Shown: positions 8,516 to 64,000 of the stretch, piece by piece
How positions within the stretch are numbered: the first letter of the stretch is position 1
Layout: each line of letters opens with the position of its first letter
NCBI GenBank assembly: GCA_903955385.1
Contig: CAJBNH010000189.1
Span: forward strand, 57,845 to 121,844
Direction: 5' to 3'
Source of the DNA: an uncultured Myxococcales bacterium
GTDB taxonomy: Bacteria > Myxococcota_A > UBA9042
Length of the DNA stretch: 64,000 bases
Program-made: the position numbers and the translations under genes
Notes under the pieces: model-generated
What the model was told of the DNA's origin: nothing
Seen by the model: only the letters and a program-made list of their open reading frames with translations
The model's database searches: none

Positions 8516-8759
8516 ATCGCCTCGTTGCGGAAAGAATCGACAGCAGATGAGGAGCAGCGTCGCGGCAGCTGCGGCCGCGAACTCTCCCAACACGGCGCCG
8601 CGATACCGCATTCCGGATCGCGATGCAACTGCTCCGACCACGGCGAGGGCCGGCATTTGTCTCAGCCGGGCGGGTCTGGCATCGTGCGGCCCGCACAGAT
8701 CGACCGGGAGTTTCTGTTCTCGCCGGGAACCGCGCGAATCCCTTGCAGGAGCGTTGCAG

Positions 8760-9659
8760 ATGTCAAGCCGAAACCGTTGGACCGCCGTGCTGGCGTGCGC
8801 GGCACTCACAGCGACGCTAGGGTGCGACTCGGGCTTCATCGACACGGGCGGCTACCTCGTGTCGAACGAGCAGGAGGTCGAGCTCGGCAAGGGCGTCGAT
8901 GTGGAAATCGAGAAGGAATACAAGATCGTCGACGCGAGCGAGCCACTGGCTCAGTGGGGCGTGCAGCTTGCCGCCAAGCTTCAAGCGGCGTCGGTCGGCT
9001 TCCGCGACCCGGCCGAGTTCGGGGGCTACAAGGTCGAGGTGATCGCCGACGACGAGCTGGTCAACGCGTTCGCGGCCCCGGGCGGCTACACCTACGTCTC
9101 GACGGGCCTGATCCTGTCGGCCAGCAGTTGCGCCGAGATCGCGGGCGTGTTGGGGCACGAGATGGGGCACGTCGCCCACCGCCACGGCGTCAAGGCGCTG
9201 GAGAAGAGCTATCTGGCGACCGAGCTGGCGACGGCTCTGCTGGGAGAGGGCACCGGCAGCGATCTGGCGGTGTTGGCGTGGGAGTTTCTGGCGTCCACCA
9301 AGTTCAGCCAGATTCAGGAGAAGCAGTCCGACTCGACCGGTCTGCAGATCGCGTTTGACGCGGGCTACAACCCCTACGCGCTGGTCGACTTTTTCCAAGT
9401 GCTGTTGGCGCAGGAGCGGGCGGCGGGCGTGGCCATGCCGGAGTTCCTGTCGTCGCACCCGGAGACTCTGGACCGCATCAACGCGATCACGGCCGAGATC
9501 GAGAGCCGGTACGGTGCCGCGGCGAATCCCAAGACGACCCAGAGCTACGAGTGCCAGGGCACGCAGCTCAAGCTGATCGACGTGCAAAACGCGATCAAGG
9601 CCAAGCAGTACAAGATCAAGGCGGGCACAGGCACGCAGCCCCGGCAGCGCGGGAACTGA
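8760..9659 (+). CDS. M48-family zinc metalloprotease, lipoprotein
   Basis: 299 aa. A signal peptide ends in ATLGC, a lipobox-like site. The zinc motif HEMGH lies at residues 133-137, and the third ligand is probably Glu187 in EKQSD. The order matches BepA/LoiP-like M48 peptidases, which act in the periplasm on outer-membrane proteins. The C-terminal part is short and lacks recognisable TPR repeats. The start at 8760 has GGAG 9 bp upstream and gives a proper signal sequence. It diverges from the DsbA-like gene across a 244-bp shared upstream region, consistent with an envelope-quality role for both. Confidence 0.88.
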   Translation: MSSRNRWTAVLACAALTATLGCDSGFIDTGGYLVSNEQEVELGKGVDVEIEKEYKIVDASEPLAQWGVQLAAKLQAASVGFRDPAEFGGYKVEVIADDELVNAFAAPGGYTYVSTGLILSASSCAEIAGVLGHEMGHVAHRHGVKALEKSYLATELATALLGEGTGSDLAVLAWEFLASTKFSQIQEKQSDSTGLQIAFDAGYNPYALVDFFQVLLAQERAAGVAMPEFLSSHPETLDRINAITAEIESRYGAAANPKTTQSYECQGTQLKLIDVQNAIKAKQYKIKAGTGTQPRQRGN

Positions 9660-9669
9660 CAAAGCACGC

Positions 9670-9867
9670 TCAGAATCTCATGCCCCACTTGGCGCGATAG
9701 CTGAACCAGCTCCACGTCAGCCAGACGGAGATTCCGATCCCGACGATGACCAGAAACGCGCTGTGGCTAAACAGCAACGCCAACAGCGTTACACCCCAGC
9801 CGCCCAGTGCGATTCCCCCCTTCTTGGCGGCTTCGCTGCGTTGCTTGGAAAGCGGTCCTCCGGACAT
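9670..9867 (-). CDS. Small two-helix membrane protein, unknown function
   Basis: 65 aa. A basic N-terminus (KQRSEAAKKGG) is followed by two hydrophobic segments at about residues 21-34 and 36-55, then a basic tail rich in Trp and Tyr. No family was recognised. ATG 9867 was chosen because AAGGAG sits 7 bp before it; an in-frame ATG 21 bp further upstream lacks a good site. It is convergent with the M48 gene, 10 bp away, and has its own upstream region shared with the Cys-rich lipoprotein. Confidence 0.6.
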   Translation of the reverse strand: MSGGPLSKQRSEAAKKGGIALGGWGVTLLALLFSHSAFLVIVGIGISVWLTWSWFSYRAKWGMRF

Positions 9868-10063
9868 CTCATGCTCCTTGCCCGGCAACAGATCGCGGGC
9901 GTTTGCGGCAGGATAGCGCGGACCGCGTCGGATGCGATACCGGGAGTCACGCGCTTGGCGGGTAAGGAAGCTTGCCAGCAGACCCGGGTGACTGGAAACT
10001 TCGCGCCAAGCGGTCCACTGCGGCCGCCAGCCCGTGCCGCTGCTGCGGCCAACAGGACTTGCC

Positions 10064-12334
10064 GTGAAGCGCCTCCTCCCGACCTCTCGTGACTGGACCC
10101 TTGCCCTCTCTCTGACGGCCTTGATGGCGGGGATGCTCGCGTGCGGCTCATCCGCGGGGGGCGGCGGCGGCGGCTATGTTCCAACGGACACCGATGCCTC
10201 GTACGACCTGTTTGGCGACGTCTCGCCGTTCGACAGCCAGACCGACACGACGCCCGACGTGAACCCGCTGTCGTGCGCCGGGCGCTGCGGGGCCTACGAC
10301 TCGGTCGCCGCTTGCCAATGCAATCCCGAGTGCTTGCAGACCAATACGTGCTGCACGGACTACGACAAGTTCTGCGCGACGACCTGCAACGTGGCGGGAA
10401 ACTGCGACGATGGCGACCCTTGCACGTTCGACGACTGCAACGACGGCAGCTGCGTGCACTCCGCCGACCTCAGCTGCTGCAAGCTGGACTCGGACTGCGG
10501 CTCGCCGATGGGCTGCTCGATGCCCACCTGCGAGAACAGCAAGTGCGTCGAGAAGCCCAAGCCGGGCTGCTGCGCATTCGGCGAGTGCTGCGACTTCGAC
10601 AAGAGCCAGATCAAGCCAGCCGGAGCGCCGTGCGGCACGCAGCTGCTGGCGACCGAGACCCAGTGCAACGACAACCTGATCCAGCAGCGCGAGAAGGTGG
10701 CCGGCTGCGACGGTCAGATTGCGGAAGTCTGCAGCCAGGACCCGAATGACGGCGTGTGGTCCGAGTGGAAGACCATCAGCGTGTGCGACAAGACCGCGGG
10801 CTGCATCCCGGGAGCTCCGGGCGAGCTGCCCACCTGCAAGGACGGCAAGCTGGCCGAGTGCGTCGACAATGCCGGCTGCGCCGACAAGAATCCCTGCACC
10901 ACAGATATCTGCAAGGATACCAAGTGCTTGTACGGACCGGCCGCTGCGGGTGTCGCGTGTGGCACCAAGCCCCTGAAGTCCGAGTACAAGTGCAGCACCC
11001 CGGGGGCGGACGGCGACGTGATGGTGCGCAACTCCGTCGCGGGCTGTGACGGGTCAGAAGCCATGCAGTGCACCGAAGCCAGCCCCGCCTGGGGTCAGTG
11101 GCAGATCGCCAAGGCCTGCTCGTGGGACCAGGTGTGCAAGGTGACGGACCCGAACACGATTGGCACTTGCGTCGCCAAGCCGGCGTGCACGCCGGACACC
11201 ACCTGCTGCACCCCGGAAGGCACCTACGCCGCGGAAGGCTCTGCGTGCGGCAAGACCACGCTGGACACCGAGACCAAGTGCGAGACGACCGAACCCGGCG
11301 GCAAGATCCTGACGCGCAAGGCCGTTGCCGGCTGTTCGGGCTACTCGACCTACTGCCAGAACTCCAGCAGCTCCTACTCGTGGGGGCCGTGGGAGGTCAC
11401 CAAGTCCTGCACCCAGTTCCAGGCCTGTCAGGAGTCCTGGAACGGCGCGGAGTGCATCTCGCCCTGCAAGGCTGGCGCCACCTGCTGTACCGCAGACGGC
11501 ATCTACGCGGCGCTGGGCACCAAGTGCGGCAGCTACGAGTTGGACAAGGAACAGAAGTGCAGCGGCCCCGAGAAGGGCGGCAAGATCCTGTCCCGCAAGT
11601 CCTACCAGGGGTGCACGGGCGACTCGACCTCATGCTCGTCGCAGGACGCGTACCTGGCGTGGACGGACTGGGCGGTCGAGAAGACCTGCGGCTCCACTCA
11701 GGTGTGCGAGGTGCAGTGGGGCTCGGCCAGCTGCGTGTCGGCCATCAAGTGTCAGGCGGGGTCGACTTGCTGCACCGCAGACGGCGCTTGGGCAGCCAAG
11801 GGGAGCAAGTGCAGCTCGTACGCCAGCGAGACCCAGTACAAGTGCGACTCGACGGCCAAGGGCGGCAAGATCTTGGTTCGCAAGGGCTATGACGGATGCA
11901 CGGGCACCGGATCGTCCTGCTCGTGGGACAGCATCGACACCTGGTGGGACGTCTGGACCGACTCCGAGACCTGCGGCGCGACAGAGAAGTGTCAGGTCAA
12001 CGCAAGCGGCACCTCGGGGTCTTGCGTCAGCGCGATCGTCTGCAACGCCGGGACGTCCTGCTGCACACCCGATGGAGACTACGCTCCGAAGGGCGCCAAG
12101 TGCGGAGATTACGTCAAGAAGTCCGAGTACAAGTGCGCCGGCGTCGACAAGGGCGCGGAGATCCTGGTGCGCGAGTCCTACAGCGGCTGCACCGGGTCGA
12201 GCACGTGGTGCTCGTTCGACGCCGCCGACGACTGGTGGTCCGACTGGAAGATCTACAAGACTTGCAGCGCCGCCCAGTATTGCAGCGTGTCCAGCCCGAA
12301 CTTCCCCGGCACCTGCACCTCGACGGCACCCTGA
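10064..12334 (+). CDS. Cys-rich repeat lipoprotein with somatomedin-B-like domain
   Basis: 756 aa from a GTG start (AGGA 7 bp upstream; another GTG at 10034 is less likely). The signal peptide ends at GMLAC, then comes a Gly-rich and Asp/Thr-rich linker. Residues 71-104 hold eight cysteines at 71, 75, 84, 86, 90, 96, 97 and 104, with CC-T-D-Y, the spacing of eukaryotic somatomedin-B domains. The rest is a series of Cys/Trp-rich repeats. The four clearest begin at bases 11186, 11465, 11750 and 12041 (93-97 residues each) and share CCT-x-(D/E)-G, GGKIL-x-RK, GC(T/S)G and W-x-x-W. It is probably surface-displayed and disulfide-bonded. The role is unknown. Confidence 0.85.
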   Translation: MKRLLPTSRDWTLALSLTALMAGMLACGSSAGGGGGGYVPTDTDASYDLFGDVSPFDSQTDTTPDVNPLSCAGRCGAYDSVAACQCNPECLQTNTCCTDYDKFCATTCNVAGNCDDGDPCTFDDCNDGSCVHSADLSCCKLDSDCGSPMGCSMPTCENSKCVEKPKPGCCAFGECCDFDKSQIKPAGAPCGTQLLATETQCNDNLIQQREKVAGCDGQIAEVCSQDPNDGVWSEWKTISVCDKTAGCIPGAPGELPTCKDGKLAECVDNAGCADKNPCTTDICKDTKCLYGPAAAGVACGTKPLKSEYKCSTPGADGDVMVRNSVAGCDGSEAMQCTEASPAWGQWQIAKACSWDQVCKVTDPNTIGTCVAKPACTPDTTCCTPEGTYAAEGSACGKTTLDTETKCETTEPGGKILTRKAVAGCSGYSTYCQNSSSSYSWGPWEVTKSCTQFQACQESWNGAECISPCKAGATCCTADGIYAALGTKCGSYELDKEQKCSGPEKGGKILSRKSYQGCTGDSTSCSSQDAYLAWTDWAVEKTCGSTQVCEVQWGSASCVSAIKCQAGSTCCTADGAWAAKGSKCSSYASETQYKCDSTAKGGKILVRKGYDGCTGTGSSCSWDSIDTWWDVWTDSETCGATEKCQVNASGTSGSCVSAIVCNAGTSCCTPDGDYAPKGAKCGDYVKKSEYKCAGVDKGAEILVRESYSGCTGSSTWCSFDAADDWWSDWKIYKTCSAAQYCSVSSPNFPGTCTSTAP

Positions 12335-39027: not shown

Positions 39028-40293
39028 CTACGGCTGCACCGCATCCGGATACCCGGCAAGCACGGGCAAGTGCGCAGGATAGCTCTCGATCGGCATCGTC
39101 CCCTGGTCGCCCTTGTTCGGTCCGATCAGCCACACATTCGCCTTGGCCACGCCCGCGGCCAGGTACGCGCCCGCGTCGGTCGTCGCATTGCCATACGCCG
39201 CCACCGGCACCACCGCCACGTCCTGCTGCAGCGCCGTCAGCCAGTCGCCCTTGAACTTCTGCACGCCGCTCTCGGTGGGCAAGACTTCCGCAGCCGTCTC
39301 GGCCAGTTGCAGGGGGCCGAGGGGAAAGCCGTGGTCCGCCAGCCACGTGCGCGAGTACCGGTTCACGGCCTGGGGGCGCCCCGTCAGGTACACGAGCCGC
39401 AGGCCTTTGGTCTCCCACGCCTGCATCACCTGATCGGCGCCCGGCCACATCTGCGCGTCCTGGCTGGTCAGGACGTCCTGGAACAGCTCCCAGTCGCTCG
39501 TCGTCAGCGTGCCATCCACGTCCGTCACGATGACCTGCACGCCCTTGGGCCACACCGCCAGCACCCCGTCGGCCACCGTTGTGTCGCCCAGCACCACCAT
39601 CTTCACGCGGTAGTCGCCCTGGGGCAGGTTGGCCGGCACGTCGAACCACACGATGCCGTCGCCGTCGGTCGTTCCCTTGCCCCACGACACCCAGGTCGGG
39701 CAGGTCTGCACCCACAGCTCGACCGCCTCGTCGCCCAGGTCCTTGTCGATGATGCCGTACGTGAACCGCCCGCGCAGCTTGCCGGCGGTGCCGACCGGAA
39801 GAATCAGGTCGCGAATTCGGTGGTTGGGTGCGGCCAGCGCGATGATGGGACTGGCGATCGTGTGCTTCCACGGCTGCTCGGCGGGCATGGCGAAGGCGGC
39901 GTTGCAGTGGCCGGCGTAGAGGCCTGGTTGCGGTTGGACGGTGTCGGTCGTTTCGGCAGTGTCGTCCGCCGTGTCCTGCGCCACTTCGGCGACGGCGTCC
40001 TCGACCGCATCCCCGGCCGTGTCGTCGGCGGCGTCGGGCGGCACGTCGGGCACGTCCGCCACCACCGCGTCCGTCGCTGCGTCCGCGGCCCCGTCGAACT
40101 CCGCGTCTGCCCAGGTGTCTTGGGTCGCGTCAAGCGCCGTATCGACCGGCGGGGCCGTGTCGTCCAGCTGGGCACCGTCGACCAGCGCGTCGCTGTCGGC
40201 GGTTGGCGTGGCCGTGCCTTCCTCCGTGCCGCTGCAGGCTGCGAGGACCGGTAACAGCACAGCCAGGAACAGGATTCGTGGCGTCAGCGACAT
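39028..40293 (-). CDS. Lipoprotein with lipin/LNS2-like HAD phosphatase domain
   Basis: 421 aa; GGAGG 5 bp before ATG. The signal peptide ends at VLAAC. A very acidic Asp/Ala/Thr/Val linker runs to about residue 125. An Ig-like region (KLRGRFTYGIIDKD, NLPQGDYRVKMVV) follows. The C-terminal domain has VIVTDVDGTLT, the D-x-D nucleophile motif of HAD enzymes, then LRLVYLTGRPQAV and ANVWLIGPNKGD, the lipin/LNS2 arrangement. Eukaryotic lipins dephosphorylate phosphatidate. A bacterial exported form may act on extracellular or membrane phospholipid, which is inference. Confidence 0.8.
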   Translation of the reverse strand: MSLTPRILFLAVLLPVLAACSGTEEGTATPTADSDALVDGAQLDDTAPPVDTALDATQDTWADAEFDGAADAATDAVVADVPDVPPDAADDTAGDAVEDAVAEVAQDTADDTAETTDTVQPQPGLYAGHCNAAFAMPAEQPWKHTIASPIIALAAPNHRIRDLILPVGTAGKLRGRFTYGIIDKDLGDEAVELWVQTCPTWVSWGKGTTDGDGIVWFDVPANLPQGDYRVKMVVLGDTTVADGVLAVWPKGVQVIVTDVDGTLTTSDWELFQDVLTSQDAQMWPGADQVMQAWETKGLRLVYLTGRPQAVNRYSRTWLADHGFPLGPLQLAETAAEVLPTESGVQKFKGDWLTALQQDVAVVPVAAYGNATTDAGAYLAAGVAKANVWLIGPNKGDQGTMPIESYPAHLPVLAGYPDAVQP

Positions 40294-48859: not shown

Positions 48860-51025
48860 CTAATACTCAAACCCGCTCCCCCCAATGAACTCGCGCAAAA
48901 TCGACGTCGGCGGCACGTGATCCGGGTAGATCGTGACAAACCGATCGATCAACTGCCGCAGCCGATACGCCGTCATGTAGCTGGGGTGGGTCTGGTCGAC
49001 CTCGAGCAAGTACCGTTCCGCAAACACCTTCAGCACCGACAGCTCGTAGATCAGCGACGAGTCGAACACCACGTCGGCCTGGGGCAGGAACGGAAAGATG
49101 TGCAGGCTCTCGCCCCGGCGCACCGACGGCCAGCGCGCGATGTTGTCGGCGGCACTGTAGCCGCGCTGGTGGCGGTCGCGGACGATGCGGCGCAACAGCC
49201 GCAGATCCGACACATTTACCCGGTTCAGCCGGTCGAACGGCAGCGCCGTCTGCGGGTTGATGAAGATGCGGTACACCAGATCGCGGTCCACGGCGTCGCC
49301 CAGCAGCCCCGGATTCAAGCCGTGGATGCCCTCGAGCATCAGGATGTCGCGGTCGTCGAGGTGCAGCTCGGGGCCGCCCTCTGGCAGGCTTTTGCCCAGC
49401 TTGAAGTCGTACTTGGATGTCTTGACCGTCTCGCCGGCCATCAGTCGTCGCAGGTGGTTCTGCAGCAGCCCCAGGTCGATGGCCTCCAGCGCCTCGAAGT
49501 CGTATTCGCCGTGTTCGTCCTTGACGGTCTTTTCGCGGTCCACGTAGTAGTCGTCCAGCGAAATGCCGATGGGATTCAGCCCGTTGACCTGCAACTGAAC
49601 CGTCAGCCGCTTGATGAAGGTCGTCTTTCCCGACGACGACGGCCCCGCCACGCACACCACCCGCACGCCGGTGCGCTGGGCGATCTCGTCGGCCACTGCT
49701 CCCAGGCGCTTCTCGTGGAAGCCCTCGCTGATGCGGATGATGTTCGACACCTTGCCCGAGATGCAGAATTCGTTGAAGGCGCCCGCACTTGTCACGCCCA
49801 GCCGGTCGGCCCAACGCTCGTGCTCGGTCACCATGCGCGCGTCGGTGGCGGCATGGGCGACCGGCGCCTCCTCGCCATGCGCGTGGACCTGCTTGTCGTC
49901 GTCGCCGAAGTACAGCATCAGCTCGCGACCCTGCTCGACCAGAGAGAAATTGCGGATGATGCCCGCACTTGGCAGCAGCGGCCCCAGGCCCAGCGCATAC
50001 ACCTTGCCGCACGACACCAGGGGCACCGTCGACTCGCGGTGGCTGCGCAACAGGTGGGCGGCGTCGTCCCACATCTGCTCGCCAAAGTGGATCATCGCCT
50101 CTTCGACGGTCCACAGCTCGACACGGAAGGGCACGTCGCCGGCCGCCAGCTCGCGCATGGTCTTGGCCAGTCGGTCGGCCAACGCTTGCAGATCTCCGGG
50201 GTTGTCGTCGACCACCTCGACCCGCTGCGCGTAGCCCAGCGAGGGCCCGATGCGGATCTCGACGCCCTCGGACTTGGCCGCCTCCAGCAGCAGTAGCGCC
50301 ACCGACTGGCGAAACACCGCACGCCCCTCCCAGTGCTGCGTCGTCAGCGGCGCCAGATGCGCGTCCGACGTCAGCGGCGTGTTCAGCGACACCGGCTTGT
50401 GGTCGATCAGGCCTGCCACCACCGGATAGCCGTCCACGTCGACCGGCAGGATCGCGTGCAGCGGCGTGCCCGTGCGCACCCGGTGCAGCCGGCCGTTCAA
50501 CTGCACATGCACGGCCGACCGGCGCGGCATCGACCGCTCTTTCAGCAGCAGGTCCACGCGGTCCGTCATCTCGGTCAGGCGGTGGGCGATGCGCGAAACC
50601 AGCGACTGCACCAGCCGCAGCGCCTCGTTCGGGCACTCTTGGGCCATCGCGCGCCAGCGGTCATGGGTCAGGCGCAGTACCGTCACCTGTGTTTCGGCCG
50701 ACACCGTTGCCGCACGCGGCCGGCCGGTCAGCAGTCCCAGCTCGCCAAAGTGCTCTCCCGGCCCCTGGCGCCCCAGGTCCATGGCGTTGCGGCGCAGGCG
50801 CACCTGGCCGTCGCCGATGAAGTAGAGGTCCCGCCCGGTGTCGTCCTGCCGCACGATGACGCCGCCGGGCTCAAAGGTCAGGGGCTGCATGTAGGGCAGC
50901 AGGACCTCCAGGTCGTCGCCGCACAGGGCAGCGAGGATCGGGTCACGGCTCAGGGCGTCCCGAAGCGCGGGAAGCAGAACGGCTGCGGTACCTTGGGAAG
51001 GGGACGGGAAGGACTCGACGACCAT
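48860..51025 (-). CDS. cNMP-binding domain fused to a nucleoside (uridine)-kinase-like protein
   Basis: 721 aa; GAGGT 5-6 bp before ATG. Residues about 25-145 form a CRP-type cNMP-binding fold (GGVIVRQDDTGRDLYFI, GEHFGELGLLTGRPRAATV). Residues about 170-420 resemble the TGS and threonyl-tRNA-synthetase-like accessory region found before bacterial uridine kinases. The kinase domain has Walker A GPSSSGKTT (near residue 457), ISLDDYYVDREKT and DILMLEGIHGLNP, the PRK/Udk pattern. It presumably phosphorylates a nucleoside under control of a cyclic nucleotide or related ligand. The N-terminal sensor is unusual for this family. Confidence 0.87.
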   Translation of the reverse strand: MVVESFPSPSQGTAAVLLPALRDALSRDPILAALCGDDLEVLLPYMQPLTFEPGGVIVRQDDTGRDLYFIGDGQVRLRRNAMDLGRQGPGEHFGELGLLTGRPRAATVSAETQVTVLRLTHDRWRAMAQECPNEALRLVQSLVSRIAHRLTEMTDRVDLLLKERSMPRRSAVHVQLNGRLHRVRTGTPLHAILPVDVDGYPVVAGLIDHKPVSLNTPLTSDAHLAPLTTQHWEGRAVFRQSVALLLLEAAKSEGVEIRIGPSLGYAQRVEVVDDNPGDLQALADRLAKTMRELAAGDVPFRVELWTVEEAMIHFGEQMWDDAAHLLRSHRESTVPLVSCGKVYALGLGPLLPSAGIIRNFSLVEQGRELMLYFGDDDKQVHAHGEEAPVAHAATDARMVTEHERWADRLGVTSAGAFNEFCISGKVSNIIRISEGFHEKRLGAVADEIAQRTGVRVVCVAGPSSSGKTTFIKRLTVQLQVNGLNPIGISLDDYYVDREKTVKDEHGEYDFEALEAIDLGLLQNHLRRLMAGETVKTSKYDFKLGKSLPEGGPELHLDDRDILMLEGIHGLNPGLLGDAVDRDLVYRIFINPQTALPFDRLNRVNVSDLRLLRRIVRDRHQRGYSAADNIARWPSVRRGESLHIFPFLPQADVVFDSSLIYELSVLKVFAERYLLEVDQTHPSYMTAYRLRQLIDRFVTIYPDHVPPTSILREFIGGSGFEY

Positions 51026-51682: not shown

Positions 51683-55264
<3,582 letters not shown>

Positions 55265-55619
55265 GGGGTCAGTCTCCTATGCAATCCACCTGAGCGGTGG
55301 GGACTTCGCGCTCGCACGCCGGGCTCGGAAAGGAGGAGGGCGCGGGGGCGGTCCGGGGCGGGGCGATAGGCGCTCGCAGGCAGGGGGAGTGCGACGAGGC
55401 CGGGTCGCCCCTGTGGGGGGCAGAGGGCGGGGCGGTGAATCCGAGCCGCGTGGACTCGAGTTCAGGTCGGCGACACCTGCCGTCGGCCGCCTCGCCGATC
55501 GCGCGCTGTATAGGTCAGGCAGCGCGAACGCGCAAGGCGGACCACCAGATCGGTCCTGACAACCGTCCGGCAGGCGGCCCGTCGGTGTCGGAATTCGGTG
55601 ACGGGAAACGGCAACATGT

Positions 55620-55637
55620 TGTCGGAGAATCCCGACA
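55620..55637. promoter_or_regulatory. Putative enhancer palindrome A (TGTCGG-N6-CCGACA)
   Basis: TGTCGGAGAATCCCGACA, an 18-bp inverted repeat with perfect 6-bp arms. Its end lies 138 bp upstream of the -24/-12 promoter. It has the same arms and spacing as sites C and D before the cytochrome operon. Confidence 0.75.
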
Positions 55638-55775
55638 CGCATGATAAGCTCATGAAATAACATGGTCTTGTGCGAAAGTCTGCCGTCGCCCCCCGTCGGG
55701 TGTCCCGGAAGCCCGACGACCCGTGTAGACCGGTGAAAATCGATAACCTGTTGAAAGTACATCTGTTGATCAAGT

Positions 55776-55791
55776 TGGCACGGACCTTGCT
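55776..55791 (+). promoter_or_regulatory. Sigma-54 (-24/-12) promoter of the small membrane protein
   Basis: TGGCACGGACCTTGCT is an exact match to the consensus TGGCACG-N4-TTGC(A/T). Transcription should start near 55802, about 80 bp before ATG 55883. Confidence 0.85.
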
Positions 55792-55882
55792 CAATAGGTG
55801 GTCATCGAGGGCGCGACGCCCCACCGAACCCGGAAGAAGACAACCGGTCCCCTGCAACCCGTTCTACCCAAGGAGATTCCTC

Positions 55883-56224
55883 ATGAGCACCAAGCGCAAC
55901 CACAAGGCCCTGCTTCCCACCTACGTCGGCGCGGCCGTCAGCTTCATCGCCTACCTGTTCATCGGCGCGGTGCCCGGCACCCTGTACGGCGGCTACATGG
56001 GCCTGATCATGACGGGCGCCCTGTTCGGCACGCCGGTCGAGCCGACGATGATGGCCAAGGTCATCACCACGGGCGGCATGGCCCTTGGCCTGTTCGCCTC
56101 CCTGTTCCTCTTCCTGGTCGCCGGCGCCTTCATCGGCACGCTGCTGGGCTGGCCGTTTGCCCCCATGCTCCGCGCCGAAGAGAAGACCGAGACCCCGACC
56201 GAGACCGTCGAAGTGACCCGCTAG
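55883..56224 (+). CDS. Small glycine-rich membrane protein under sigma-54-type control
   Basis: 113 aa; AAGGAG 7 bp before ATG 55883. Two or three hydrophobic segments, at about 13-47 and 62-92, are rich in Gly and Ala (GGYMGLIMTGALFG; GMALGLFASLFLFLVAGAFIG), followed by an acidic Thr/Glu tail (EEKTETPTETVEVTR). No family was recognised. The exact -24/-12 promoter and matching upstream palindrome put it under the same control as the downstream cytochrome operon, so it may be an accessory of that pathway. Confidence 0.72.
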   Translation: MSTKRNHKALLPTYVGAAVSFIAYLFIGAVPGTLYGGYMGLIMTGALFGTPVEPTMMAKVITTGGMALGLFASLFLFLVAGAFIGTLLGWPFAPMLRAEEKTETPTETVEVTR

Positions 56225-56401
56225 TCCCGCGAAGTCGTCCGGCCGGGGCATCCTCCCCCCCGGCGCATCGGTCCGCTCCTCCCCCCCCCAAGCGGTCCGC
56301 TGCAGTCCCGGTCCCGGACGTGGCCACCGACAGCCGCCCCTCCTCCTCTCCCCGGAAGGCGGCGGCTGCCGGTGGCCAAGAAACCCAGAACAAATTCCAT
56401 G

Positions 56402-56419
56402 TGTCCAGAATTCCCGACA
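56402..56419. promoter_or_regulatory. Putative enhancer palindrome B (imperfect)
   Basis: TGTCCAGAATTCCCGACA. The right arm is perfect; the left arm has two changes. It is 24 bp upstream of site C, so bound dimers would sit a little over two helical turns apart. Confidence 0.6.
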
Positions 56420-56425
56420 CCGGCT

Positions 56426-56443
56426 TGTCGGAAGAACCCGACA
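56426..56443. promoter_or_regulatory. Putative enhancer palindrome C
   Basis: TGTCGGAAGAACCCGACA with perfect 6-bp arms, matching sites A and D. Confidence 0.75.
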
Positions 56444-56489
56444 GTCGAACGGCGCCAAGTCGTTGAAATTGCGTGACGCCGCACTTGGC

Positions 56490-56507
56490 TGTCGGGGAAT
56501 TCCGACA
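56490..56507. promoter_or_regulatory. Putative enhancer palindrome D
   Basis: TGTCGGGGAATTCCGACA with perfect 6-bp arms. It ends 131 bp before the -24/-12 promoter at 56639, nearly the same distance as site A from its promoter. Confidence 0.77.
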
Positions 56508-56638
56508 GATACCATGGCCGAGTGCCGTTTCTGGGCGTAGAGTGGTGGCCGGGGGCTGGGTGAACTGACGCACCGAGTGTGTTGCAACACTTGAAGATCC
56601 ATCGAGAAGTCACTCCCATTTCGGCCAAGACGGTCGGC

Positions 56639-56654
56639 TGGTACGGAAATTGCT
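56639..56654 (+). promoter_or_regulatory. Sigma-54 (-24/-12) promoter of the cytochrome operon
   Basis: TGGTACGGAAATTGCT differs from the consensus TGGCACG-N4-TTGC(A/T) by one base (T for C). The GG and GC dinucleotides are correctly spaced. The expected start is near 56665, 81 bp before ATG 56746. Confidence 0.82.
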
Positions 56655-56745
56655 TTGGTCTGCGCCGACCCTTCTGGGCCTCCCACCCACTCCTCCCGCT
56701 TGTTTCAGTCCCGTCCGCACGGAAACCACCTCGCAAAGGTAGCCC

Positions 56746-58383
56746 ATGCTCGCCCACCTTCCCGCCCGCCTTCTGTGGTCCGCCGCCCTGCTGGGTGCGC
56801 TGTTGACCGTTTCGCTTCCCGCCACGGCCAAGACTCCGAACCCGTCGGATGATCCGAAGTGGTGCCGGGTTTGCCATCAGGATGCAGTGTTTGCGCCGGC
56901 CGAGGTCTCAGCGACCGCGCACGCCGACGTCTCGTGCCGCGAGTGCCACAAGGGCTTTCACTTCAATCCGCACGAGAAGGTGATCTCGCCCGAAGGCGAG
57001 CCCGCCCAGGCGCTGAAGGACCGCGGCCTTCGGGTGCCCGACGCCTGGACCGCTTGCGGCGACTGCCATGAGGTCGGCGAGAACCCCGGTCACCTGCCGC
57101 ACGGCAAGGACAAGGACGGCGCCAAGGCCGGTCTGCCCTACTGCAAGGACTGCCACGGCAGCCCGCACACGATTCGGCTCGCCAAGGAGCTGGAGCCCAA
57201 CGCCCATCGCGCAGAGATGAACGAGAAGTGCATCACCTGTCACGGTGACCCCAAGCACATGAAGCCGTTCAAGATCCCGACGGACGTCGTCGAGGGTTAC
57301 GAGCACACGATGCACGCGCGGCACCTGCACCTGGGCTCCAAGGAGTCGCCGGGTTGCGCGGACTGCCACGGTGGCCACAAGCCGATCGACCGCAACGCCG
57401 TGACGGCCCAGCCCTGCATCAAGTGTCACGAGAACGCGACCCCGGAGTTCCGCAAGAACGCCAAGCACGCAGCGATGACGGCAGACAGGCGGCCGATCAG
57501 CTTCTGGACCGTCAAGTTCTTCGCCTGGCTGACCTTCCTGACGATCTTGGGCCTGTGCCTGCACGTGCTGCTCGACCTCGCCGCGACCTTCCGGGCTGCG
57601 CGCAAGGGGGCCGCCCACGGTCACGTCGACCACGGTGCCAACCTGCTGGCCAAGGCGGGGCTGGTCGGCAAGGACCGCCGCGTCGTCCGCTTCGACATCC
57701 ATCAGCGGATCATGCACGGCATCATGGCGTTCTCGTTCACCACGCTGGTGCTGACGGGCTGGCCGCTGAGCGCACACGGTTTCGGCGCCTCGCGCTTCCT
57801 GGTCGACCTGTTCGGGGGCCTGCAGACGGCGGGGCTGTGGCACCGCATCGCCGCGATTGGCCTTGTGATCACCAGCGTCTACCACCTGACGTATCTGGTC
57901 GTGCTCGCGTTCTCGCGCAAGCTGCCGTTGTCGATGGTGCCGATGCCGCGCGACCTCTTCGACGCGATCGGCAATATCATGTATTTCCTTGGCTTGAAGA
58001 AAGAGCGCCCGAAGTTCGCGCGGTTCTCCTACTTCGAGAAGTTCGACTACTGGGCGGTGTTCTGGGGCGTCGTGATCATGGTTGGCTCGGGCACGATCCG
58101 CTGGTTCCCGGCAGAGTTCGCCAAGATCGCTCCCAACTGGCTGTACGAGGTCGCCTTCCTGGCCCACGCCGACGAGGCGCTGCTGGCGGCGATGGCCATC
58201 TTCGTGTGGCACTTCTACAACGTGCACCTGCGTCCCGCCGTCTTCCCGATGTCGTGGGTGTTCCTGCACGGCAAGCTGACGGTCGAGGAGCTGGCTGAGG
58301 AGCACGGCGCCGAGTACGACGCGCTGGTCGAGAAGGCCAAGTCCAAGGTTGCCAAGAGTGACGACGGCAAGGAGGGCGCATGA
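56746..58383 (+). CDS. CbcL-like fusion: 7-haem c-type cytochrome plus b-type membrane cytochrome
   Basis: 545 aa with a signal peptide (1-28). Seven CxxCH sites lie between residues 40 and about 225 (CRVCH, CRECH, CGDCH, CKDCH, CITCH, CADCH, CIKCH). From about residue 240 there are several membrane helices with conserved His (QRIMHGIMAF, LWHRIAAIGLVITSVYHLTYL, VWHFYNVHLRP), like the HydC/FdnI cytochrome-b family. This layout is that of Geobacter CbcL, an inner-membrane quinol oxidase that sends electrons to periplasmic cytochromes. CbcL has more c-haems by my recollection. The stop overlaps the next start (ATGA). AAAGGTAG precedes ATG. Confidence 0.88.
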   Translation: MLAHLPARLLWSAALLGALLTVSLPATAKTPNPSDDPKWCRVCHQDAVFAPAEVSATAHADVSCRECHKGFHFNPHEKVISPEGEPAQALKDRGLRVPDAWTACGDCHEVGENPGHLPHGKDKDGAKAGLPYCKDCHGSPHTIRLAKELEPNAHRAEMNEKCITCHGDPKHMKPFKIPTDVVEGYEHTMHARHLHLGSKESPGCADCHGGHKPIDRNAVTAQPCIKCHENATPEFRKNAKHAAMTADRRPISFWTVKFFAWLTFLTILGLCLHVLLDLAATFRAARKGAAHGHVDHGANLLAKAGLVGKDRRVVRFDIHQRIMHGIMAFSFTTLVLTGWPLSAHGFGASRFLVDLFGGLQTAGLWHRIAAIGLVITSVYHLTYLVVLAFSRKLPLSMVPMPRDLFDAIGNIMYFLGLKKERPKFARFSYFEKFDYWAVFWGVVIMVGSGTIRWFPAEFAKIAPNWLYEVAFLAHADEALLAAMAIFVWHFYNVHLRPAVFPMSWVFLHGKLTVEELAEEHGAEYDALVEKAKSKVAKSDDGKEGA

Positions 58384-58880
58384 CCCCCGCCCGCCGCATC
58401 CTGATCGGCCTCGTGGGGATCCTGGTGGCGACGGGGACCGTGGTCCTGTTGAGCCCCGACGTCCGCATCGAGGTCCGCAACGGCGCGTTGGTAGTTCCGG
58501 CGGCCGAGGGCCTCGGCGCTGGCCACGGGCCCGAAGCGACCGCGCTGCCTGAGGCTGCCACGACCGCTGTTGCCCTTGCTGACGCTGCCACCTCGGCCGT
58601 GCCTGCCGCCGAGGGGGCTACCGCGACCGAGGGCGAAGAAGCCGAGGCCGCCGACGCACCCGCGGAGTCGACCGAGACCCAAGCCAAGCTCGCACGGCTG
58701 GCGAAGCTGCCCTGCTTCGAGTGCCACACGATCAAGGACTACAAGGAAGGCGAGGACTTTCCGCACGTCATGCACGAACAGGAGCAGGGCGTCGGCGGTC
58801 ACTGCCACAAGTGTCACGCGTTCGAGGGGCACTTCCAGGTGACGGTCCGCAAGGAGGTCTGTGCCGAGTGTCACGACTGA
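58380..58880 (+). CDS. Membrane-anchored 3-haem c-type cytochrome
   Basis: 166 aa. An N-terminal anchor (residues 6-24) precedes an Ala/Glu-rich linker of about 80 residues and a compact C-terminal domain with three CxxCH sites (CFECH, CHKCH, CAECH) plus distal His residues (HVMHEQE). Its ATG overlaps the preceding stop by four bases. Its last codons contain the ribosome-binding site of the next gene. It is a likely electron-transfer link between the CbcL-like protein and the 12-haem cytochrome. Confidence 0.87.
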   Translation: MTPARRILIGLVGILVATGTVVLLSPDVRIEVRNGALVVPAAEGLGAGHGPEATALPEAATTAVALADAATSAVPAAEGATATEGEEAEAADAPAESTETQAKLARLAKLPCFECHTIKDYKEGEDFPHVMHEQEQGVGGHCHKCHAFEGHFQVTVRKEVCAECHD

Positions 58881-59853
58881 GACTCCCCCGGGAGGAGGCC
58901 GACGCGGGCTCTTCCTGAAGGTGGCGTTTCTGTGCGGGGTTCCGGCCCTGCTGGGGCTGGGCTTTGCCTCGTTCCGGTCGTTCGAGCACTACGTCCAGCA
59001 CGACCCCGACTTCTGCGCCCAGTGCCACGTCACGCAGGACCAGTACGCTCTGTGGGCAGAGGGCGAGCACCACAACGTGCCGTGTCAGGCGTGCCACGAA
59101 CAGACCACGGCACAGGCGCTGGACTCCCTGCGCGGGTTCATTTCCTCAGAGCCAGCCAAGGGTTCCGGGCCGCACACCAAGGTCCACACGCCCAAGGTGC
59201 CGGTCAACGCCTGCATTCGCTGTCACGAGAAGAACGTGGGCGACTGGCCGCAGATCGGCAAGTCGATCGGCCACAAGCTGCACCTCAAGCAGGGCGAGAT
59301 CACCTGCAAGAGCTGCCACGCGCGCACGATCCATAAGTTCGGCGCGGCGTTGGACGCGTGCCCGGACTGTCACAAGGGGCAGGCCGTGCGCACCACGGGC
59401 ATGGAGAAGCTGCACTGCAACGCCTGCCACAACTTCCTGAACACCAATGACACCTTGATCCCGACCCGCCGCGTCTGCTTGGACTGCCACGCCGCACGCG
59501 GCGTGTCGATGCCAGAGCGCGCCCAGAACGAGCACATGGCGCGCTTCTCGTGCGGGGTTTGCCACTTGCCCCATCAGGACAAGAAGACTGCGCATGGTCA
59601 GTGTCTTTCATGCCACGAGGGCATCCAGCAGCACCCAGGCCTGCACTCGGTGCCGGACCACGCGGCCTGTCAGGACTGCCACCAGGCGCACACCTGGCTG
59701 CCGCAGCGCAAGCTGTGCCTCGAGTGCCACGACGACAAGGACAAGCACCACTCCGAGCAGGCGAACTGCTGGAGCTGCCACAAGACCCAATCCCCAGCGG
59801 CCGACCTCGCTTCGCCCCCCACGGCGGACGGCGCGTCGGAGGCGCCGCCATGA
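58861..59853 (+). CDS. 12-haem NapC/NirT-like c-type cytochrome
   Basis: 330 aa from a GTG inside the previous gene (20-bp overlap), with AAGGAGGT just upstream. The N-terminal membrane helix (residues 16-36) and the following HDPDFCAQCH resemble NapC/NirT quinol dehydrogenases. Twelve CxxCH motifs are visible: CAQCH, CQACH, CIRCH, CKSCH, CPDCH, CNACH, CLDCH, CGVCH, CLSCH, CQDCH, CLECH, CWSCH. The family usually has four or five, so this is an extended haem wire. It may pass electrons across the periplasm to an outer-membrane conduit not present in this window. The stop overlaps the kinase ATG (ATGA). Confidence 0.9.
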   Translation: MPSVTTETPPGGGRRGLFLKVAFLCGVPALLGLGFASFRSFEHYVQHDPDFCAQCHVTQDQYALWAEGEHHNVPCQACHEQTTAQALDSLRGFISSEPAKGSGPHTKVHTPKVPVNACIRCHEKNVGDWPQIGKSIGHKLHLKQGEITCKSCHARTIHKFGAALDACPDCHKGQAVRTTGMEKLHCNACHNFLNTNDTLIPTRRVCLDCHAARGVSMPERAQNEHMARFSCGVCHLPHQDKKTAHGQCLSCHEGIQQHPGLHSVPDHAACQDCHQAHTWLPQRKLCLECHDDKDKHHSEQANCWSCHKTQSPAADLASPPTADGASEAPP

Positions 59854-61799
59854 CATCGCCGACCCCCAAGCTGCGTCGGCCTCGCTTCAGCTTGCGGATT
59901 CGTCTCGTCCTGCTCCTGTCGGGCATCATCTGCCTGATTCTGGCTGGGCAGACGCTGTTCTGGCTGTCGAGCGAGGTCACCGATCTGGACCACCGGATCG
60001 CCACGCAAGGGACCATCCACGCCCAGGGAATCGCCAATGCCTGCGCCGGGTTGATGGGCGGATCTGACCCGCATCGCTTCGACTTCGTGATGGGCAGGAT
60101 TCGACGGACCGTGGACCTGATCGAGCTGGCTGTCGTCGACCCATCCGGCAAGGTGCTGGCCCACAGCGACGCCACCCAAGTCGGCCACCAGCGCACCGAC
60201 CGTCGCCACGGCGTATTCGGTCCTCCGCGGTCAAGTCCGGGTCTCGTCGGTCTTTTCGGCAACGCCTTGGCCTATCAGGTCTCGGCTCCCGTGCTGCGGG
60301 GCAGCGACGTGCTGGGCTTCATCTACCTCGAGTTCCGCTCCAACGAGATCGCCGAGCGTGCCGGTCGGCTGATGCGGTCGGCGGCGACCATGGCGCTGTT
60401 CTGGCTGATCGTCGGGGCCGCGGCCGGCACCGTCTACGTTCGGCGCATCACCAAGCCGCTCGCGGTGCTGACCCAGGCGGCGCAGAGCATCACCGAAGGG
60501 CGACTGGATGCCGTGCCGGTGGGTCCGCCCACGTCTCACGACGAGGTGGGGACGCTGCAGGCGAGTTTTCGCCATCTGCAGGCAGGGTTGCGGGCCCAGC
60601 GCGCAGAGAACGCCGAGCTGTTGGACCGATTGCAGCAGCTCAACGACAAGCTGCAGCGCCGCGTCAACGAGGTCACGGCAGAGCTACGCCAGACCGCCGC
60701 CTATCTGGAGTCGGTGTTTCGTTGCATGGAGGTCGGCCTTGTCACCGTCGACGCCCACGGCGACATCGTGCAGGCCAATCAGGGCGCGGACCGGCAGCTG
60801 ACCGGCCTTGGACGTCCGGAGGCCGGCAAGCACGTCAGCGCGCTGATTCCCGACGGAGAAGCGCTGGGGACGATGGTCGAGACCGTGGTGCGTTCGGGCG
60901 CCGCGGCAACGCTGGAGGTCGTGCGCAGCTGCGAGGTGGGGCCTTGGCACGAGGGGGGGCCGGTCTCTTCGGCGCCGTCCGGCGGCCAGCGCACCTTGGG
61001 CTTTCGCATGTATCCGCTGCGGGGGCCTTCTCGCACGACGCTGGGGGCCGTGATCCTCGTGACCGACCTGACCGAAGAACGGTTGGTCGAGTCGCGTCTG
61101 CGCCGTCACGATCGGCTGGCGTCGCTGGGCACCATCGCTGCGGGGCTGGCGCATGAGCTTGGCAACTACATGCATGGTATCGGAGGGTTCTCGTCGATCC
61201 TGCTGAAGTCGCTGCCCCCCGACAGTCCGCACCGCGAGGACGTGCAGACCATCCACGACGACAACGCCAAGGCCGTCGCACTGCTGGAGCGTTTCCTGCA
61301 GTTCGCCCGGCTGGGGCAGGTGCGCTACCAGACCGAGCCGGTGGGGACAATCCTGCGGGAGGCGACCGGTATCGCCTCGTATCGCCTGCGGAAAGCCAAC
61401 GTGCAGGTCGTCGACACCATCGAGGACGAGGGACCAGAGGCGCGGTGCGACGCCCGGCTGCTGACGCAGGTGTTCGTCAACCTGGTTCTGAATGCCGTCG
61501 ATGCGATGGAAGGTCGCGCAGAGCGCCGCCTGACCCTGAGCGCCAACCTGTCCGGCCAGGACCGCGTGGTCCTCCGCGTCGAAGACACCGGCGGCGGCAT
61601 CGACCCGGCCCACGTCGAGCGGATCTTCGATCCGTTCTTCACCACCAAGGGCGCGACCGGCACCGGCCTCGGGCTGTCGATCGCTCACCAGATCATCGAG
61701 CGTCACGGCGGCACCATCACGGTGCAGAGCCGTCGCGACCAAGGCACCACCTTCGTGATCGAACTGCCCTGCTCGGGACCCCTCGAGCAGGACGCTTGA
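59850..61799 (+). CDS. Membrane sensor histidine kinase (HAMP-PAS-HisKA-HATPase)
   Basis: 649 aa; GGAGG 8 bp before ATG, which overlaps the cytochrome stop. Two membrane helices (about 20-38 and 170-195) flank a periplasmic sensor. Then come HAMP (ITKPLAVLTQAAQSITEGRLD), a coiled coil, a PAS domain (FRCMEVGLVTVDAHGDIVQAN), the phospho-acceptor His435 in AGLAHELGNYMHG and an ATPase (VNLVLNAVDAME, DTGGGIDPAHVERIFDPFFTTK, GTGLGLSI). It belongs to the NtrB/ZraS type that partners with sigma-54 regulators. It probably senses redox state or an electron acceptor, since it is co-encoded with cytochromes. Confidence 0.93.
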   Translation: MTSPTPKLRRPRFSLRIRLVLLLSGIICLILAGQTLFWLSSEVTDLDHRIATQGTIHAQGIANACAGLMGGSDPHRFDFVMGRIRRTVDLIELAVVDPSGKVLAHSDATQVGHQRTDRRHGVFGPPRSSPGLVGLFGNALAYQVSAPVLRGSDVLGFIYLEFRSNEIAERAGRLMRSAATMALFWLIVGAAAGTVYVRRITKPLAVLTQAAQSITEGRLDAVPVGPPTSHDEVGTLQASFRHLQAGLRAQRAENAELLDRLQQLNDKLQRRVNEVTAELRQTAAYLESVFRCMEVGLVTVDAHGDIVQANQGADRQLTGLGRPEAGKHVSALIPDGEALGTMVETVVRSGAAATLEVVRSCEVGPWHEGGPVSSAPSGGQRTLGFRMYPLRGPSRTTLGAVILVTDLTEERLVESRLRRHDRLASLGTIAAGLAHELGNYMHGIGGFSSILLKSLPPDSPHREDVQTIHDDNAKAVALLERFLQFARLGQVRYQTEPVGTILREATGIASYRLRKANVQVVDTIEDEGPEARCDARLLTQVFVNLVLNAVDAMEGRAERRLTLSANLSGQDRVVLRVEDTGGGIDPAHVERIFDPFFTTKGATGTGLGLSIAHQIIERHGGTITVQSRRDQGTTFVIELPCSGPLEQDA

Positions 61800-61833
61800 A
61801 CGTCCCCCACCCCCCAGGGACGAGTGTGACCGG

Positions 61834-63201
61834 ATGAAGAAGCCCACAATCCTGTTCATCGACGACCAGAAGTCGGCGCGCGACCTGTTCTCGCGTCAAC
61901 TGGACCCCGAGCGCTTTCGGCCGCTGACGGCGCCCGGCGTGCTGGCGGCCGAGGAGATGATCCGTCAGGAAGCGCCCGACGTGATTGTCACCGACCTGCG
62001 CATGCCCGACATCGACGGACTGGACGGCCTTGAGCGGTTCCACGCCCTGGACCCCGAGCTGCCCGTGATCTTGATCACGGCGTTCGGCACGGTCGAGACC
62101 GCCGTGGAGGCGATGAAGCGCGGCGCGTTCGACTACGTGCGAAAGCCGTTCGATACCGGAGAGTTGGAGATCGTCATCGACCGCGCCCTTGGCCACCGCA
62201 ACCTGCTGCGAGAAAACGCACGGCTGCGATCCGAGGTGGCGCGCAAGTCTGCGTCGGACGACATCATCTGTCGGGCCCCGGCGATGATGTCGGTGATGGA
62301 CCTGGCGGCACGCGTCGCGCCGTCGGACTTCTCGGTGCTGATTCTGGGAGAGAGCGGCACAGGCAAGGACCTGTTCGCCAAGCGCATTCACCAGTTGAGC
62401 AACCGCGCGACGGCACCGTTCGTGTCGCTGAACTGCAGCGCGATCCCGGAGCACCTGCTGGAGAGCGAGCTGTTTGGCCACGAGAAGGGCGCGTTCTCAG
62501 GAGCGACCAATGCACGCGCCGGCTTCTTTGCCGAGGCGGACGGCGGCACGCTATTCCTGGACGAGATCGGCGACATGAGCCCCAACCTGCAGCCCAAGCT
62601 GTTGCGCGTGCTGCAGAACGGCGAGTACTACCGCGTGGGCAGTCGGCGCCTGACCAAGACGGACGTTCGTCTGGTTTGCGCGTCGAACCGTCGCATCGAA
62701 GAGCTTGTCGAGAAAGGGCAATTCCGCCAGGACCTGTACTACCGCATCAACACTGTCCGCATCGCCTTGCCGCCCCTGCGCCAGCGCACTGAAGACATCC
62801 CGTTGCTGGTCGAGCACTTCCTGCAGAAGCTGCGCAAGACCTTTCCCCATGTGCCCTCGCGGCTGAATGCTCAGGCGGTGCGCCACCTGCTGGACTACGG
62901 CTGGCCGGGCAACGTGCGAGAGCTGGAGCATGTGATGGAGCGGTCGTGTCTGGTCTGCGATGGCGACGAGCTGCGGGCCGACGACCTGCCGCCGGAGATT
63001 CGCGGCACGGCGAGCTCGGGCGTCGCCGTTGCGGAGCGGCCCTACAAGGACGCGCGCCGCGACTTCGAGCGCAACTACTTCCTGCAGCTGTTGGCCAGTG
63101 CCGAGGGCAACATCCAGAAGGCCGCGGAACTTGCCGGGATTCATCGCAGCACGCTGTACGAGAAGCTGGCTGCCCTGCAGATCGCGGTCGAACGGGAGTA
63201 G
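61834..63201 (+). CDS. NtrC-family sigma-54-dependent response regulator
   Basis: 455 aa. The receiver domain has acidic pair Asp10-Asp11, phospho-acceptor Asp54 and Lys in VRKPFD. The AAA+ domain has Walker A GESGTGKD at 172-179 and the sigma-54 contact loop GAFSGA at 219-224 (Ser in place of the usual Thr). Walker B is GGTLFLDEIGDM. The C-terminal Fis-type helix-turn-helix is GNIQKAAELAGIHRSTLYEKL. It is the likely binder of the TGTCGG-N6-CCGACA palindromes. The gap to the kinase gene is 34 bp; the ribosome-binding site is weak. Confidence 0.95.
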   Translation: MKKPTILFIDDQKSARDLFSRQLDPERFRPLTAPGVLAAEEMIRQEAPDVIVTDLRMPDIDGLDGLERFHALDPELPVILITAFGTVETAVEAMKRGAFDYVRKPFDTGELEIVIDRALGHRNLLRENARLRSEVARKSASDDIICRAPAMMSVMDLAARVAPSDFSVLILGESGTGKDLFAKRIHQLSNRATAPFVSLNCSAIPEHLLESELFGHEKGAFSGATNARAGFFAEADGGTLFLDEIGDMSPNLQPKLLRVLQNGEYYRVGSRRLTKTDVRLVCASNRRIEELVEKGQFRQDLYYRINTVRIALPPLRQRTEDIPLLVEHFLQKLRKTFPHVPSRLNAQAVRHLLDYGWPGNVRELEHVMERSCLVCDGDELRADDLPPEIRGTASSGVAVAERPYKDARRDFERNYFLQLLASAEGNIQKAAELAGIHRSTLYEKLAALQIAVERE

Positions 63202-63320
63202 CCGGGTCGCCATCCGAGCGACGGGCAGGCGCAGTGGGCGTCGGCAGTGACAGGTGGAGACAAGGCGGCTAACCTCCCGCCGGTCCCCCCGCCAATCACC
63301 CACTGCTGTCGAGGCGCGCC

Positions 63321-64000
63321 ATGGACGAAAAGACCCCCCTCACCGATGCCCTCCGCTACCACTCGGAAGGCCGACCCGGCAAGATTGAGGTCGTCCCGAC
63401 CAAACCCTGCATCACCCAACGGCATTTGTCGCTCGCGTACTCGCCTGGCGTCGCCGAGCCCTGTCTCGAGATCGCCCGCGACCCCGACCTCGTCTACGAC
63501 TACACGGCCAAGGGCAACCTGGTGGCGGTGCTGTCGAACGGCACGGCGGTCTTGGGCTTGGGCGACATCGGCGCACTTGCGGGCAAGCCAGTGATGGAAG
63601 GCAAGGGCGTGCTGTTCAAGAAATTCGCGGACATCGACGTGTTCGACATCGAGGTCAACGAGAAGGACCCGAAGAAGCTGATCGAGATCGTCGCCGCGTT
63701 GGAACCCACGTTTGGCGGCATCAACTTGGAGGACATCAAGGCCCCCGAGTGCTTCGAGGTCGAGCGTGAGCTGAAGAAGCGGATGAACATCCCGGTCTTC
63801 CACGACGACCAGCACGGCACCGCGATCATCACCGCGGCCGGCGTGATGAATGCCGTCGAGATCCAGGGCAAGAAGATCGGCGAGATCAAGGTGGTCGTGT
63901 CCGGTGCAGGCGCCAGCGCGATCTCGTGCATGAACCTGTGGCAGATGGTCGGCGTCAATGCCGAGAACATCACGATGTGCGACTCGCGCGGCGTGATTCA
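63321..64000 (+). CDS. maeB: NADP-type malic enzyme, 3'-truncated by window edge
   Basis: 226 complete codons are visible; the frame is open at the right edge. GAGG lies before ATG 63321. The N-terminus matches Mae[73 protein letters not shown] and the dinucleotide site [16 protein letters not shown]. It converts malate to pyruvate, CO2 and reduced nicotinamide. Whether the phosphotransacetylase-like tail is present cannot be seen. It has its own 119-bp upstream gap and is not obviously part of the cytochrome operon. Confidence 0.93.

Follow-up and report, generated by a model that had tools for sequence, protein, structure and literature searches.

The best known inner-membrane gates of extracellular respiration are ImcH, CbcL and CbcBA of Geobacter and CymA of Shewanella. 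CbcL of Geobacter sulfurreducens carries nine c-type haems and a di-haem b-type domain (as described in PMC9129911 and PMC6295460), and the account of the family in PMC6295460 places its members in 15 phyla, with 3-23 haem motifs and possible operation in both directions. The joining of c- and b-type cytochromes in one chain is thus not new. Geobacter Cbc5 (cbcEDCBA), as summarised in PMC10470525 and PMC11434368, comprises a 7-haem CbcA, the b-type CbcB, CbcC/OmcQ with 11-12 haems, a 1-haem CbcD and a membrane protein, CbcE. Here we describe a gene module built around a c- and b-type fusion (bc) protein in 64,000 nucleotides of DNA from an uncultured Myxococcales bacterium (contig CAJBNH010000189.1, positions 57,845 to 121,844; the whole stretch is referred to as the window, and coordinates are those of the window).

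We predict that the module encodes a menaquinol oxidase that would feed periplasmic cytochromes and whose synthesis would be switched on by its own regulator, a reading to which we assign a probability of roughly 0.6. Its predicted genes are, in order, a small membrane protein (g0), the bc protein (g1), a 3-haem (g2) and a 12-haem (g3) cytochrome, a histidine kinase and a sigma-54 response regulator. As far as the open literature searched extends, the novelty lies in a 7-haem clade whose genes sit in a conserved operon together with g0, g3 and a two-component system of their own, and in the module's conserved predicted binding site.

Kinship of the bc protein

By its sequence, the bc protein is CbcL-like: it lies inside the CbcL superfamily in the wide sense, yet is not CbcL. 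As in CbcL, MtrH and MtoC, an N-terminal multihaem c-type part is fused to a C-terminal FdnI-type b-type cytochrome, and its seven haems fall within the published range (3-23, as given in PMC6295460). Here, CbcL and Cbc5 denote Geobacter-lineage genes, those of G. sulfurreducens itself not included, named from haem count and layout rather than from record annotation. In a b-domain tree of 66 rows, rooted on the FdnI/CbcB side where the program warns of long branches, the window domain groups with CbcL-type domains and apart from FdnI and CbcB (support 96/97). Escherichia coli FdnI, other Geobacter FdnI-like proteins and five CbcB-type proteins lie on the far side of this split. Pairwise, the b domain is 37% and the c domain 30% identical to a 9-haem protein of Geobacter argillaceus.

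Within this grouping, the 7-haem proteins of the module form a clade of their own with moderate support (89/76), outside the CbcL clade (100/100), which holds ten Geobacter-lineage 9-haem proteins and two from the sister genomes G009 and G016. All ten Geobacter-lineage hits have nine c haems, whereas the window protein has seven and further differs in sharing its operon with 3-haem and 12-haem cytochromes, g0 and a two-component system of its own. No g0, g2 or 12-haem partner was found at E 1e-6 in five CbcL-type loci (L049, L050, L151-L153). Both the module and a 9-haem CbcL-type gene are present in G009 and G016, and therefore the two types coexist in those genomes. The window's own genome yielded no 9-haem CbcL-type gene at E <= 1e-20; a second b domain, of the split type, is on contig C1. 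Of the CbcL-like fusion proposed in the initial annotation, a bc fusion of CbcL type in the wide sense stands (96/97 split, 37% b-domain identity), but its being CbcL does not (seven haems, own clade).

That annotation also implied a simple CbcL ortholog in a lineage with a BccR-like regulator. Shared superfamily and fusion, the b-domain identity and one Geomonas sp. Red32 locus, in which a sigma-54 regulator 37% like that of the window abuts a 9-haem cbcL (L153:7196-10584, minus strand; one of three Geobacter-lineage CbcL loci), would fit such an origin, but the haem number, the separate clade, the two genomes holding both types and the missing partner genes make it very improbable. BccR is said, in work by Joshi et al. 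of 2021, to belong to CbcBA. Even less probable, to the point of being negligible, is a role for the b protein as a subunit of formate dehydrogenase or of a hydrogenase. The likeness to FdnI lies in the four-helix b fold and in four histidines at matching positions: g1 H324, H366, H474 and H489 align with FdnI H18, H57, H155 and H169, which we take to be haem-binding. The FdnI chain (PDB 1kqf_C) is the only PDB match at E <= 0.001 of an AlphaFold2 model of g1 (mean predicted local distance difference test (pLDDT) score 78; TM-score 0.75 by target), the Pfam match in g1 is Ni_hydr_CYTB, and weak family hits to formate dehydrogenase gamma subunits are far below cut-off. Against this, the window b domain is on a branch separate from FdnI, fused to c haems and without a catalytic partner, as no formate dehydrogenase or hydrogenase catalytic gene was found in the operon by Pfam scan. 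Grouping of the b domain with formate dehydrogenase, named at the outset as the result that would overturn the CbcL-like assignment, did not appear in the tree, whose sample held no hydrogenase b subunit. On tree and pairwise comparison, three candidates were rejected: a CbcL ortholog (own 7-haem clade), a CbcBA homolog and a formate dehydrogenase subunit (96/97 split).

The module resembles Cbc5 in its 7-haem c, b, 12-haem c layout, in including a small membrane protein and in having a sigma-54 regulator close by, and some module members carry the c and b parts as separate genes. The contiguous 7-b-12-1 order is present in two of five fetched Geobacter-lineage Cbc5 loci, and each of the five carries sigma-54 regulators within 20 kb that are 36-41% like that of the window. 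Unlike Cbc5, the window b domain is on the opposite side of the tree from CbcB (best pairwise E 0.045), g3 matches OmcQ only at E 0.002, and the module regulator belongs to a different clade and has a different recognition helix. Given these E values for the b and 12-haem proteins, we call the resemblance a likeness of layout; a common origin may be too old to see. A third arrangement, with a 9-haem c gene and a CbcL-superfamily b gene adjacent and separate, was seen in Anaeromyxobacter (L137, L138) and in L172 and L173.

The gene unit and its conservation

The genes at 56746-63201 overlap or nearly abut as open reading frames (ORFs), in the five-gene layout first annotated. The overlaps are 4 bases between g1 and g2, 20 between g2 and g3 (the start of g3 being uncertain) and 4 between g3 and the kinase; 34 bases separate kinase and regulator. 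For the kinase we use the ATG at 59850, as a longer listed ORF begins upstream, inside the 12-haem gene. The three cytochromes hold 7 + 3 + 12 = 22 haem motifs, matching the 22 c-type haems counted initially, all of them CxxCH and none CxxCK. Pfam matches are HAMP, PAS_4, HisKA and HATPase_c in the kinase and Response_reg, Sigma54_activat and HTH_8 in the regulator. No meaningful PDB relatives were found for g2. We predict that the unit is larger than these five genes and is a six-gene module, 55620-63201, that includes g0, which sits between a divergent pyruvate:ferredoxin oxidoreductase gene and g1 and has no family match above cut-off. Scans found no terminator-like site on the plus strand and no sigma-70-like site within 55200-63700, and no Rfam matches in the window.

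Conservation was followed in a family sample of 22 genomes and a phylum sample of 377 genomes, the latter searched with g1 at E <= 1e-60. Of the 22 family genomes, 11 have a close g1 relative, and the 10 that carry g0 all belong to these 11 (Fisher 1.7e-5, uncorrected for kinship). Across the phylum, g1 was found in 24 genomes: 18 of module type (window genome counted), five of an 8-haem type and one of a split 9-haem type. The g1 relatives that have names belong to Myxococcales, Myxococcota or Anaeromyxobacteraceae; on this basis the Myxococcota-like host first suggested is plausible. Besides the window there are 19 module loci, including those of two Anaeromyxobacter genomes (A. soli and A. 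terrae). A kinase and a sigma-54 regulator related to those of the window follow g3 in all 15 loci whose contigs reach past g3, the two Anaeromyxobacter species among them; those of L036, L044, L045 and L168 end before this position. The initial proposal that cytochromes and regulator form one unit agrees with the regulator following the cytochromes in these 15 loci.

The gene order is kept across five sampled families and Anaeromyxobacter, with the 7-haem c and b parts either fused or in adjacent genes (separate in L168-L171), and at least five of the six genes remain linked even in distant relatives, Anaeromyxobacter among them. All seven CxxCH motifs of g1 are invariant among 30 aligned homologs, and the b-domain and regulator trees agree in their main forks. 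The gene g2 is fused to the tail of g1 in L167 and, judging by a reading frame with 10 motifs, in L044 as well. It is absent in A. soli and A. terrae, where g1 is followed by a 38-39% homolog of g3 with 12 CxxCH. Homologs of g0 are 37% (A. soli) and 36% (A. terrae) identical, and 17 homologous protein clusters were found; g0 was not found at the locus in L037, L038, L169 and L171. In G009 a second g0, with its own sigma-54 match, lies behind the regulator, and G010 has a further g0 at another site, accompanied by a palindrome and a sigma-54 match. Copies of g0 at positions other than the start of the operon were seen at L035:3784-4122 (minus strand), L229, L175 and L179, with a -24/-12 match before those in L035, L175 and L229 and also an exact palindrome in L229.

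Features of the module, in window coordinates
Feature	Position	Strand	Description
Predicted regulator-binding palindrome before g0	55620-55637	.	exact TGTCGG-N6-CCGACA
Predicted sigma-54 (-24/-12) promoter of g0	55776-55791	+	TGGCACGGACCTTGCT, exact consensus, 107 bases before ATG
g0	55883-56224	+	113-amino-acid predicted membrane protein, two hydrophobic segments
Predicted regulator-binding palindrome	56402-56419	.	2 mismatches; first of pair 24 bases apart
Predicted regulator-binding palindrome	56426-56443	.	exact match
Predicted regulator-binding palindrome	56490-56507	.	exact match
Predicted sigma-54 (-24/-12) promoter of cytochrome operon	56639-56654	+	TGGTACGGAAATTGCT, exact consensus, 107 bases before ATG
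g1	56746-58383	+	predicted signal peptide, seven CxxCH, then FdnI-type b cytochrome
g1, b cytochrome part	residues 311-532 = 57676-58341	+	
g2	58380-58880	+	3-haem cytochrome, predicted N-terminal membrane anchor
g3	58861-59853	+	12-haem cytochrome, predicted N-terminal anchor, weak NapC/NrfH-like start; start codon uncertain
Histidine kinase	59850-61799	+	two transmembrane segments, extracytoplasmic PAS/Cache-like sensor, HAMP, PAS, HisKA, HATPase; without CxxCH
NtrC-type sigma-54 response regulator	61834-63201	+	Fis-type helix-turn-helix

Promoters, predicted binding sites and the two-component pair

Palindromes of the form TGTCGG-N6-CCGACA stand upstream of both -24/-12 matches in the window. 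The number of -24/-12 sites is no evidence by itself, because the 3 found in the window at <=1 mismatch (1.8 expected from shuffles) were equalled or exceeded in 26 of 100 shuffles. The evidence for promoters is instead that both exact matches, including the one at 56639 that the initial annotation had placed before the cytochromes, lie 107 bases before start codons, and that matches recur in the same gaps in seven of ten family relatives (before g0 in L035, L039, L042 and L043; before g1 in L035, L036, L039, L040 and L041).

Only four exact palindromes were found in the 5.3-Mb genome, three of them at the module (a reversed control pattern gave one). The fourth (C189:35645) lies in a weak ORF upstream of a nuoC-like ORF, without a sigma-54 match. 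Palindrome density was compared over the window and ten family relatives (11 loci, <=2 mismatches), with the gaps before g0 and g1 as targets: 41 sites fall in 6.4 kb of target gaps and 39 in the other 198.7 kb, making them about thirtyfold denser in the targets (37 and 19 sites, respectively, when the window is left out). The target length is about 0.3 kb short at the contig ends of L040 and L041, which lowers the density from 6.4 to about 6.1 sites per kb. Pairs spaced 23-25 bases apart occur in 8 of the 11 loci. Palindromes recur in the gap before g0 in family relatives, and five of the nine in L170 are around g0. In A. soli and A. terrae a palindrome with one mismatch precedes g0, and the -24/-12 match is poorer.

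Genome-wide counts fail to separate module-bearing from module-less genomes, and only position does so. The 17 family genomes contain 32 exact palindromes, 19 in 11 module-bearing and 13 in six module-less genomes. We located 19 of the 32: eight in the module, one before a second g0 copy (L229, with sigma-54 match) and 10 inside called ORFs, some of them weak. One family genome without the module (G017) has five near-identical palindromes, TGTCGG-A-R-T-A-Y-K-CCGACA, on five contigs, which are probably the site of another regulator.

The pair has the parts of a sigma-54 two-component system, with a receiver, an AAA+ sigma-54 domain and a helix-turn-helix, along with -24/-12 promoters and conserved upstream sites. 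In its kinase-regulator pairing, promoters and upstream palindromes it is like NtrC/AtoC-type systems; unlike them, it is linked to cytochromes, and its best curated model matches, AtoS and AtoC, score far below their cut-offs. The module regulators form one clade against eight other sigma-54 regulators (95/94), and their recognition helix is alike among module members and unlike that of two Geobacter Cbc5-adjacent regulators. The regulator is predicted to bind the TGTCGG-N6-CCGACA sites, and the self-regulation proposed initially gains support, as a prediction, from the conserved palindromes and sigma-54 sites.

The kinase contains no CxxCH, and a model of its sensor (mean pLDDT 79) matches the extracytoplasmic domains of WalK, CitA and DctB (14 chains, E <= 0.001). 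Fold and missing motif together favour a small molecule or a protein partner, rather than a bound haem, as the signal. The redox sensing first suggested for the gateway was not supported, and a redox sensor with a bound c haem was rejected on the absence of CxxCH and the PAS/Cache-like model.

Proposed electron path, alternatives and cytochrome setting

We propose that quinol would give electrons to two b haems in the membrane, after which the seven c haems of g1 would take them over and relay them to the anchored cytochromes with 3 and 12 haems. These in turn could hand them to periplasmic or outer-membrane cytochromes, towards outside acceptors; extracellular acceptors are plausible. An extracytoplasmic signal would lead the kinase to phosphorylate the regulator, which would bind its palindromes and activate sigma-54 RNA polymerase at the two promoters; the levels of g0, cytochromes, kinase and regulator would thereby rise together. 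At a guess, g0 may belong to the complex as a subunit or help to assemble it.

Several observations weigh against this scheme. The consensus -24/-12 was not found in the target gaps of L037, L038 and L045, nor was a palindrome found before L167, L169 and L171 with the patterns used, and the exact palindrome also occurs in five of six searched family genomes that lack the module. The initial annotation had called for a search for porin-cytochrome conduits nearby; none was seen beside the operon (window 28000-64000, where the contig ends), and the genome has no match to MtrB/PioB (PF11854). The direction of electron flow cannot be read from sequence, as the CbcL family runs both ways in the account given in PMC6295460.

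Some of these points favour other uses of the same complex. It could serve a soluble periplasmic acceptor (e.g., nitrite, nitrous oxide or peroxide) through g3 rather than extracellular acceptors, which we regard as somewhat unlikely. The weakly NapC/NrfH-like start of g3, the missing conduit and MtrB/PioB, and the binding of small molecules by sensors of this fold in CitA and DctB are in keeping with such a role, but there is no reductase gene among the module genes of 15 relatives, the haem motifs are all CxxCH with no CxxCK, and the genome is rich in multihaem cytochromes, including a cluster of 9-haem, barrel-like and 13-haem lipoprotein genes. Less likely again is reverse operation as a quinone reductase that takes electrons from periplasmic cytochromes, an MtoC-like use. 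Homologs of CbcL, MtrH and MtoC also occur in Fe(II) oxidisers, with no feature separating the directions in the PMC6295460 account, and reverse operation of CbcBA in sulfate reducers that live syntrophically is proposed in PMC10553843. In the part of the window examined, however, no electron-donor oxidation genes were seen next to the module, and the pyruvate:ferredoxin oxidoreductase and malic enzyme neighbours (named from sequence) suit organic-carbon oxidation.

If the menaquinol oxidase reading is right, the module would be a separate, self-contained gate, equipped with a switch of its own and a likely binding site in the DNA, that two cultured Anaeromyxobacter species and uncultured relatives carry. 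With it one could ask which acceptor or potential switches such a gate on, it could serve as a marker for finding this gate in metagenomes, and the small membrane protein family of g0 could be tested as a subunit. More tentatively, and with more doubt than confidence, we suggest a third class of quinone-to-periplasm gate: separately from Geobacter, a b domain of CbcL type would have been incorporated into a complex of Cbc5-like 7c-b-12c layout, with g0 as a new membrane subunit and the whole under a private sigma-54 switch. Anaeromyxobacter and its kin may use this gate as an on-demand electron exit at a set potential.

The genome has 40 matches to PF14522 (c7 family) on 14 contigs, including proteins with 36, 38 and 22 motifs. 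Contig C43 (L254, G000:C43:1-10378) has in a row a 9-haem gene truncated at the contig end, genes for a 516-amino-acid barrel-like protein and a 13-haem predicted lipoprotein, a PilS-like kinase and a sigma-54 regulator, which together make a candidate porin-cytochrome conduit of the outer membrane with its own switch. L253 (G000:C125:4000-22000) holds another cytochrome cluster with a two-component system, in which a 6-haem protein and a ferredoxin-like protein lie near a kinase and a sigma-54 regulator. Very large cytochromes are present in L257 and L258: L257 encodes 36 CxxCH in 945 amino acids (8481-11318, minus strand; 10683 region) beside a 13-haem protein, and L258 has 38 CxxCH in a 2463-amino-acid frame that runs off the contig (3126-10516, plus strand). 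Elsewhere in the window, cyclic-nucleotide-binding and phosphoribulokinase/uridine-kinase domains are joined in one chain (48860-51025, minus strand), and the gene at 39028-40293 (minus strand) matches eukaryote-type PITM/LNS2 phosphatidate-phosphatase-like domains.

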